Origin: an uncultured Fodinibius sp. | GTDB taxonomy: Bacteria; Bacteroidota; Rhodothermia; Balneolales; Balneolaceae | Reading direction: 5' to 3' | DNA: 64,000 nt | NCBI GenBank assembly: GCA_913057775.1 | Contig: CAJXOG010000003.1 | Coordinates: 62,001-126,000 of the forward strand | Part shown: positions 25,583-27,937 of the stretch, in pieces | Position numbering within the stretch: the stretch's first letter is position 1 | How the letters are laid out: every line of letters starts with the position of its first letter | Position numbers and translations under genes: made by a program | Notes under the pieces: model-generated | Seen by the model: only the letters and a program-made list of their open reading frames with translations | What the model was told of the DNA's origin: nothing | Database searches by the model: none

Positions 25583-26332
25583 ATGGGTCAGTGGTTCACA
25601 CGGATTGCTACTTCTACGATATTTGTGCTTTCGTGCTTTTTTCTTTTCGGAGGTACAGATTATGATCCCGAACCGTTAACATATGAAGTGAAGCCGGGAG
25701 ATACCCTCTACGGAATTGCCGCAGAGTTTGGTAATTTTATGTGGTGGGTTGAAATCTATGAGGCGAATGAAGAGAAGATCGAAAATCCCAATTTGATCTT
25801 TCCCGGCCAAGAGTTACAGATTCCCTCCTTTGTTGTTCAAGCTTTTAAAGTCCCAGTAACGATGGATGAGGTTGATCGTGTGTTGTCAATGGACAAGAAA
25901 TTTGGGCATCAGGAAAAAGAGGCGAAGAATGAAAAGAAGCTTAAAAAGTTCCGAAAAGCCTTTGATAAATTAGTTGAGAAAAAAGAAAGAGAGAAGAAAG
26001 AATCTGAAGTCGATGATTATGAGGGACTGGGATTAGGCGGTTTAATACTGGATGAAACCCGCAGCAAAATGGGCAGCAATTTCTATTCTGTATTCTACAA
26101 GCACTGGGAGGATCCCAAGAACGCACAGAATTTTACGATTACCGTTTCGGAACAGCCCATGCCCTCTCGGGGAACGATGGTACAGGTTGAAATTGATAAC
26201 CAGCTTGTTTTCAAGAATCGCTTGGAGCCGCGCTATTATAAAACAGAACAGGCGGCTAAGCAGGCAGTAAAGATTTGCCAGCGCAGACTCCAGCGAATCG
26301 CAGCAACACAAAATGAAATGGCAGGCTATTAA
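25583..26332 (+). CDS. csgE: Curli assembly protein CsgE fused to N-terminal LysM domain
   Basis: LysM: YEVKPGDTLYGIAAEFGNFMWWVEIYEANEEKIENPNLIFPGQELQIP; CsgE-like: GGLILDETRSKMGSNFYSVFYKHWEDPKNAQNFTITVSEQPMPSRGTMVQVEIDNQLVFKNRL. Confidence 0.88.
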   Translation: MGQWFTRIATSTIFVLSCFFLFGGTDYDPEPLTYEVKPGDTLYGIAAEFGNFMWWVEIYEANEEKIENPNLIFPGQELQIPSFVVQAFKVPVTMDEVDRVLSMDKKFGHQEKEAKNEKKLKKFRKAFDKLVEKKEREKKESEVDDYEGLGLGGLILDETRSKMGSNFYSVFYKHWEDPKNAQNFTITVSEQPMPSRGTMVQVEIDNQLVFKNRLEPRYYKTEQAAKQAVKICQRRLQRIAATQNEMAGY

Positions 26333-26334
26333 TC

Positions 26335-26796
26335 ATGAAAAGATTAGTTACTACATTTTTCACAACAGCTATGCTGGCCGGCTTGATGCTGATGTCTCCC
26401 GGGCAGGCAGAAGCTCAGGACTTTGTTTATCAGCCGAAGAATCCTGCGTTTGGGGGATCATACGCCAACTACAGCTGGATGATGAACTCGGCAAACCAGC
26501 AGAATAAATTCCAGAGTAGCGGTGGTGGTTTCAGCAGAGATCCGCTGGCGAATTTTGAGCAGTCATTACAGCGCCAGGTATTGTCGCAGCTAACCCGACA
26601 AATTATTGGCGATCGCTTTGGTGAAGGAAATATTGATTTAAACGAGCGAAGTAACTTTGAATTTGGAGAGTTTAATATAAGCATTAATCCCGGACCGGAC
26701 GGGGTCAGTATCAATATCCAGAATATACTGTCCGGGGAATCGACGACCGTAACCATACCGTCGGGCTTTGGCGGAGGAAGTTTTGGAGGAAATTAA
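26335..26796 (+). CDS. csgF: Curli assembly protein CsgF
   Basis: Signal peptide then QDFVYQPKNPAFGGSYANYSWMMNSANQQNKF, CsgF hallmark. Confidence 0.93.
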   Translation: MKRLVTTFFTTAMLAGLMLMSPGQAEAQDFVYQPKNPAFGGSYANYSWMMNSANQQNKFQSSGGGFSRDPLANFEQSLQRQVLSQLTRQIIGDRFGEGNIDLNERSNFEFGEFNISINPGPDGVSINIQNILSGESTTVTIPSGFGGGSFGGN

Positions 26797-26847
26797 GGTG
26801 AAATTATTAACACGAGCAGCATTGAAAATGGAATTGCAGGAAGACTT

Positions 26848-27014
26848 TAGGAGCTGAATCAAATAAAGAAGGCAGCACCAGGGATCTTCTCCAACCGAAA
26901 GGTTCGGAGAAGGGAGGACCTCTGATGCCGCCCATTGAAGAACATTAATAATTTCTAATATAAGCATAAGTTTATGCTTCTTCAATGGCAGGCCTTCTGT
27001 ACTGTTGGCTCCTA
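26848..27014 (+). ncRNA. Candidate structured RNA (branched, GNRA tetraloop) between csgF and csgA
   Basis: Closing stem TAGGAGCTGA/TTGGCTCCTA; arm with CTTCTCC-AACC-GAAA-GGTT-c-GGAGAAG; arm CCATTGAAGAA/TTCTTCAATGG with inner AAGCATAA-GT-TTATGCTT. No T-tract after the GAAA hairpin. Confidence 0.45.
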
Positions 27015-27042
27015 TGTGATTCGGACATAAGCTCCCGGATCC

Positions 27043-27061
27043 TATTCCGATAATCGGAATA
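27043..27061. promoter_or_regulatory. Perfect palindrome upstream of csgA (candidate operator)
   Basis: TATTCCGAT-A-ATCGGAATA, 59 nt before the csgA ATG. Confidence 0.5.
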
Positions 27062-27120
27062 ATTAACAAGTTGGCTTGAACATTCAATTAATCTGAATAA
27101 AAACATAGGGGTAACCTATT

Positions 27121-27897
27121 ATGAAGAAGCTAACAACACTACTTTTTGTTCTGGTATTCGCCAGTTCTATGGCGTTTGCTCAGAGTAATGATGCAGATGT
27201 GGACCAGGATGGTGACAACCAAGACGCTACGGTAACGCAGATGCAGAATCAAAACTCTGCTACAGTCGACCAGATGACAGATAATGCTGGACCTCAGGAA
27301 GCTACTGTCTATCAGGATGGCTTTTCCAATGTCGCTACAATTAGCCAAAGTCAGACTGGTGGTGGAAATAATGACCCAAAAAGTGTTGCTAAGATAGAGC
27401 AGCTTGGTAACAATAATTGGGCCAAACAAAGTGAATCTGCTGGTAGCTATAATAGTAATCAACATGCATATTCTCGGCAAGATGGTAACCGAAACTGGTC
27501 TAGCCAGACTGCAGTAAGTGGATATAATATAGATATGGATGTTCTCCAAGTTGGCAATAATAATGATGCCAAGCAGACTGCAAATGGTGCATATAATTCT
27601 GCTGATATAACATCATTGGGGAATGGTAATTATGCTGAGCAGTCTGTAACAAACTCAAGTTATGCCACAATCTACCAGGATGGTAGTAGTAACTATGCAT
27701 TTCAGGATTTAAATGATGGGTCATATACAAGTCCATCTGTTAATGCAGATATCGAGCAGTTAGGTAACAATAACTGGGCTTCTCAAACTCAAACTGGTGA
27801 AGGTTTGACTGCAACTACCAAACAATTCTCAAGTGGTAACTGGGCTGACATTGATCAGTCTGGCTATAATTCAACTGCTACTGTAACACAAAACTAA
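27121..27897 (+). CDS. csgA: Major curlin-like amyloid subunit (paralogue 1)
   Basis: Signal peptide plus repeats such as IEQLGNNNWAKQ, VLQVGNNNDAKQ, IYQDGSSNYAFQ. Confidence 0.88.
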   Translation: MKKLTTLLFVLVFASSMAFAQSNDADVDQDGDNQDATVTQMQNQNSATVDQMTDNAGPQEATVYQDGFSNVATISQSQTGGGNNDPKSVAKIEQLGNNNWAKQSESAGSYNSNQHAYSRQDGNRNWSSQTAVSGYNIDMDVLQVGNNNDAKQTANGAYNSADITSLGNGNYAEQSVTNSSYATIYQDGSSNYAFQDLNDGSYTSPSVNADIEQLGNNNWASQTQTGEGLTATTKQFSSGNWADIDQSGYNSTATVTQN

Positions 27898-27904
27898 ATT
27901 AAAT

Positions 27905-27937
27905 AAAAGGGACGCTAGCTAAAAGGTGTCCCTTTTT
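27905..27937 (+). terminator. Rho-independent terminator between the two curlin genes
   Basis: AAAAGGGAC...GTCCCTTTTT. Confidence 0.75.

Follow-up and report, generated by a model that had tools for sequence, protein, structure and literature searches.

A candidate family of structured leader RNAs preceding curlin subunit genes in the Balneolales

The space between csgF and a csgA-like curlin subunit gene in an uncultured Fodinibius sp. holds a 167-nt element, at positions 26848–27014 of the window (the whole stretch of 64,000 nucleotides that was analyzed), and comparison of related sequences argues strongly that it belongs to a conserved, cis-acting leader RNA of the curlin mRNA. In all, 27 copies sharing a four-part fold (P1/P2/P3/P4) were found in 21 Balneolales genomes of families f1, f3, and f5. 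On balance, the element probably forms the core of a folded 5′ leader, new to Rfam, which would set the translation of curlin through a switch in its closing stem, P1.

Fold and strand of the element

The + strand of 26848–27014 folds with an energy of −61.9 kcal/mol, compared with −41.0 ± 3.9 kcal/mol for 200 dinucleotide shuffles, none of which was as good (z −5.4). The branched structured RNA proposed in the preliminary description has thus held up against shuffled sequence, and covariation in homologues, given below, likewise exceeds that in shuffled and slid controls. The − strand has a comparable folding energy (z −6.1), and because the two are nearly equal, homologues and not energy alone were required to decide the strand. 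Cells with G-U outnumber those with A-C by 22 to 2 in an alignment of seven Fodinibius sequences, which points to an RNA on the + strand, as had been suggested from a GNRA loop; the corresponding cells number 17 and 17 in a 10-sequence alignment.

All pairings named at the outset exist in the sequence, and P1, P3, and P4 had already been seen (Table 1). The first arm (P3) is itself real, but the GGCA/TGCC drawn at its base is not a conserved pairing. Its GGC (26871–26873) belongs to P2 (26867–26873/26992–26998), a helix that had been overlooked and is supported by compensatory changes, and the arm truly starts with GCA/TGC (26875–26877/26926–26928). Homologues carry CTGC/GCAG and CTTAC/GTAAG in P3, with different loops. 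The 5′ strand of P1, TAGGAGCTGA, additionally mimics the csgA ribosome-binding site.

The complete leader of about 270 nt consists of the core, hairpins H3 and H4, and the csgA ribosome-binding site, and hairpins downstream of the core are present in the leaders inspected. Immediately 5′ of P1, many members have a conserved AATTGC..AA.AAT-like stretch (26830–26847 in the window). No match to the Bacteroidota promoter motif TAnnTTTG occurs between the core and the gene upstream of it or inside the leaders; the only one within 80 nt is inside csgF of genome G014. An upstream reading frame (MELQEDFRS*) was rejected as a conserved leader peptide because its start is lost in G017 and it has an in-frame stop in G012.

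Table 1. Features of the leader and its neighboring genes in the window
Feature	Position	Strand	Remarks
csgF, upstream gene	26335–26796	+	PF10614
P1 closing stem, 5′ strand (TAGGAGCTGA)	26848–26857	+	GGAG/CTCC almost invariant; flanking pairs covary (CG/AU, GC/GU)
A-rich, unpaired, conserved P1-P2 linker (ATCAAATAA)	26858–26866	+	CAAATAA-like stretch retained in Fodinibius and G037
P2, 5′ strand (AGAAGGC)	26867–26873	+	AU/GC compensatory changes; paired in 98% of cells
P3 (arm 1): basal GCA..CAGGG; apical CTTCTCC/GGAGAAG and AACC-GAAA-GGTT	26875–26928	+	AU/GC, CG/GC, AU/GC double changes
P4 (arm 2): CCATTGAAGAA/TTCTTCAATGG, apical part variable	26932–26988	+	Basal stem retained, one GC/AU double change; loop unconserved
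P2, 3′ strand (GCCTTCT)	26992–26998	+	Window fold and covariation alignment
P1 closing stem, 3′ strand (TTGGCTCCTA)	27005–27014	+	Window fold and covariation alignment
Proposed anti-Shine-Dalgarno segment (GCTCCTATGT), overlapping P1 3′ strand	27008–27017	+	10 bp with 27103–27112
Hairpin H3 (GATTCGG/CCGGATC)	27018–27041	+	Predicted; hairpin at the same place, with altered sequence, in other members
Hairpin H4 (TATTCCGA/TCGGAATA)	27043–27061	+	Predicted folds of leaders
csgA ribosome-binding region (ACATAGGGGT), proposed partner of the anti-Shine-Dalgarno segment	27103–27112	+	9 nt before ATG
Curlin subunit gene (csgA-like), owner of the leader	27121–27897	+	Curlin_rpt PF07012

Covariation was counted separately for each subgroup because MAFFT misaligns P3 and P4 when applied to all subgroups jointly. 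In the two alignments, each arranged by the model to fit the structure and to that extent biased in its favor, the seven sequences gave 10 pairs with double changes and a covariation of 0.280, compared with 0.172 ± 0.015 for shuffled and 0.04–0.09 for slid partners, and the separate 10 sequences, with a separately built model, gave 12 such pairs and 0.223 versus 0.140. The slide controls and the large changes in P3 (CTCC/GGAG to CTGC/GCAG; AACC/GGTT to GGC/GCC) argue that this covariation is real. All 22 member cores tested folded better than each of their 100 shuffles (median z −5.3).

Homologues and genomic context

A blastn search of the family returned three relatives, including one of another genus (G037) in which the element is not beside csgF and precedes a curlin gene by about 100 nt. 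The covariance model R1, built from these and the window sequence, detected three further Fodinibius members (E ~1e-15), all with the order csgF-RNA-curlin, and a weak match between two curlin genes of G016. Model R2 added G018 (csgG-RNA-curlin) and a second copy in G016, while inspection of the sequence revealed the last of the three G016 copies and, in G037, a tandem pair. Curlin leaders inspected in other genera (G061, G062 with a tandem, G067, G075, and G030) have the same architecture with a very different sequence. Model R3, built from four of them with no Fodinibius type included, added G041, G104, G110, G118 (two copies), G123, G124, and G125, spanning three families of the order. Since R3, blind to the Fodinibius type, also picks up G018 and two of the G016 copies in 231 kb (E ~5e-4), and G014 weakly, the groups are one family. 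The named species matched is Fodinibius roseus (Balneolota, Balneolales); Aliifodinibius is now merged into Fodinibius (PMC9909488).

Outside the order, nothing convincing was found among 395 sampled genomes of the wider phylum, and an exact-pattern scan of 85,462 species returned only members of the Fodinibius type and chance matches. The pattern matches outside Fodinibius (L082, L084, L086, L088–L090, and L092–L095) are mostly in coding sequence and have no model match except for a weak partial one in L084. Weak model matches in G056, G009, and G094 were deemed chance by context or score, as was one in G014 (C6), which sits between convergent genes; a 48-nt partial match in G258 was set aside by score alone.

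The gene following the RNA encodes a curlin subunit in 24 of the 27 copies, and the one preceding it is csgF, csgG, or another curlin gene. The remaining copies lie at a contig end (one of the G118 copies), after csgG without a clear curlin reading frame (G124), and in a context that was not established (G123). Away from curlin genes, the searches gave no convincing copy. Among the 18 genomes of the family with csgF, 15 have the RNA and two others are cut by contig ends; in the last (G068), csgG and curlin are too close together to fit the RNA. Because the upstream gene varies between csgF and csgG, the element is better described as a leader of the curlin mRNA than as an element of csgF. A regulatory leader of the curlin genes, one of the options raised in the preliminary description, is therefore strongly supported; the other two, a stand-alone sRNA and a processing element of csgF, are disfavored. 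The general pattern of riboswitches, a conserved structured leader upstream of one type of gene, is found here. In the same locus of the window, the CsgE homologue (25583–26332) bears an N-terminal LysM domain that E. coli CsgE is not known to have.

A mobile repeat or DNA hairpin of the REP kind that landed in the csg locus would likewise give inverted repeats in an intergenic location. This origin has almost no probability and is refuted by copy number and context: the genome of the window contains one copy, where REP and MITE elements are dispersed, and the copies elsewhere directly precede curlin genes in the proportion given above. The G-U-compatible changes also indicate an RNA.

Copies are multiplied in several loci. 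G016 has three, one before each of its three curlin genes, and two complete copies in tandem precede a single curlin gene at L115 (G062) and at L106 (C3 of G037), an arrangement that resembles tandem riboswitches. A hairpin that resembles a terminator, with its T run (AAAAGGGAC..GTCCCTTTTT), is located 3′ of csgA at about 27903–27935. In both G016 and G062, comparable hairpins occur between the curlin genes, and each RNA-curlin unit may therefore be a separate transcript. These hairpins, and the presence of a large conserved RNA within a biofilm-matrix operon, would also suit an EAR-like element of processive antitermination, acting in cis, in which the RNA modifies RNA polymerase and causes read-through of the terminators between curlin genes. 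Such a role is unlikely, since one copy should then suffice for the three genes of G016, which favors control gene by gene over operon-wide antitermination. The tandems of G037 and G062 also speak against it, and it leaves the complementarity to the ribosome-binding site unaccounted for.

Complementarity to the ribosome-binding site

The segment GCTCCTATGT, most of which is P1 3′ strand, is complementary to the csgA ribosome-binding region ACATAGGGGT over 10 bp. Pairing of the P1 3′ strand with this region has an energy of −15.3 kcal/mol in the window (p 0.0005), and p falls under 0.03 for 8 of the 10 leaders compared with shuffled ribosome-binding regions. The combined p of 6.5e-6 over leaders is merely indicative because the members are related and not independent. 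Non-cognate pairs frequently equal cognate ones in strength, and a general match of GGAG to CTCC thus accounts for part of the signal. With the whole core competing, the best complement is at the 3′ end of P1 in about half of 22 leaders, and the likely mechanism is therefore translational. Both partners are altered in one leader (G037b2), where the site AAGGTGC faces GCACCTT in the P1 3′ strand, slightly inside its end, and G041 has ACAGGA/TCCTGT with the complement at the P1 3′ end. Strong complements lie elsewhere in the core in G030 and G104; the complementarity is weak in G011, G061, G067, and one G118 copy (G118b), and absent in G017. The leader of the latter (L105) retains the RNA fold before a curlin gene that has lost its Shine-Dalgarno sequence (AAAAAAGACACATACTATG).

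The 16S gene was not found in the assembly of the window, and a genome of the same genus was consequently used for the anti-Shine-Dalgarno tail. The tail CACCTCC is retained there, the 16S ending in GGATCACCTCCTTT. Shine-Dalgarno-type sites are few, preceding 7 of 51 genes in the window and 4 of 51 in a stretch used as control. On the + strand between the core and csgA, no intrinsic terminator (GC-rich hairpin with a T run) was found, and attenuation before csgA was rejected.

Confidence in a Shine-Dalgarno switch, judged from the sequences, is moderate. With the core folded and P1 closed, the AGGGG ribosome-binding site would be free. If P1 opened, its 3′ strand would pair with the ribosome-binding region and mask the site, and the intervening hairpins H3 and H4 would loop out. 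The two states are nearly equal in energy in the window (−86.4 versus −85.3, about 1 kcal/mol apart), yet predicted ensembles favor P1, with a probability of 0.97 in the window. A small molecule, a protein, temperature, or another RNA could tip this balance, and a core that is large, conserved, and sometimes tandem would fit a sensor domain. It is conceivable, though doubtful, that the RNA represents a new Balneolales riboswitch class with tandem forms, whose ligand would be a metabolite or second messenger related to the biofilm and whose control over translation of the curlin amyloid would be direct.

Two other explanations bear on the same leaders. In one copy of G118 (G118b, L137), the start site (GGTGACCAACCATG) repeats the segment GGTGACCAACCA of P3, and with one change this is also seen in L130 (G125); such mimicry may reflect a binder common to both sites, or else the two near-palindromic copies may pair with each other. 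A shared site of this kind is what would be expected of an autoregulatory leader whose fold is bound by a curli-related or ribosome-associated protein that blocks translation, but start-site mimicry is not seen in Fodinibius and this form of control is as improbable as antitermination. The second is a passive stabilizer or RNase barrier, by which the curlin mRNA would outlast that of csgE, csgF, and csgG and the conservation of sequence would be incidental. Curlin is required in excess over the export machinery and all copies fold strongly, as a stabilizer would have it, but this function can do without conserved unpaired nucleotides, a particular geometry of the junction, and any match to the ribosome-binding site, and full tandem copies are difficult to account for, which makes it quite improbable. 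The P1 switch acting on translation remains the preferred reading.

Comparison with known regulatory RNAs

Nothing in Rfam 15 reaches the gathering score over the core, and at permissive thresholds only chance matches far below the cut-off (E 0.8–7) were obtained, in agreement with the initial failure to recognize a riboswitch class. A literature search returned no paper joining Balneolaceae with curli and no work on curli regulation in the phylum. Going by sequence, this RNA family, which Rfam lacks, is new, but its general kind, the structured leader RNAs, is known. It is a covariation-supported family tied almost wholly to one type of gene, that of a functional amyloid subunit, and it offers a putative example of control through the Shine-Dalgarno sequence in a lineage in which such sites precede few of the genes examined. 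Were it a riboswitch, its ligand would reveal the signal that commits these halophiles to a curli matrix.

The EAR element is the antitermination RNA of exopolysaccharide (eps) operons in Bacillus. Both RNAs are large, act in cis, and belong to a biofilm-matrix operon, but the Balneolales RNA has no Rfam match, precedes each subunit gene in G016, and is linked to the ribosome-binding site. Elsewhere, c-di-GMP-I and tandem glycine/c-di-GMP-I riboswitches have been reported in association with csgG or curlin-related genes, and share with the present RNA this link to curli (PMC9481103). The Balneolales RNA differs from them in its fold, has no match to the Rfam models for c-di-GMP or glycine, and directly precedes the curlin subunit gene.

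In translational riboswitches such as the add adenine riboswitch, the 3′ strand of P1 doubles as the anti-Shine-Dalgarno sequence. The Balneolales leaders are alike in their 5′ position, their junction closed by P1, and, sometimes, a tandem form. Their P1 3′ strand can likewise pair with the ribosome-binding site, though the anti-Shine-Dalgarno match is clear for about half of them, and they match no class in sequence or in Rfam. In the leaders of ribosomal protein genes, a bound protein blocks translation and a structured leader masks the ribosome-binding site. Such masking by a structured leader is the feature that the two would have in common, whereas the target here is the gene of an extracellular amyloid.
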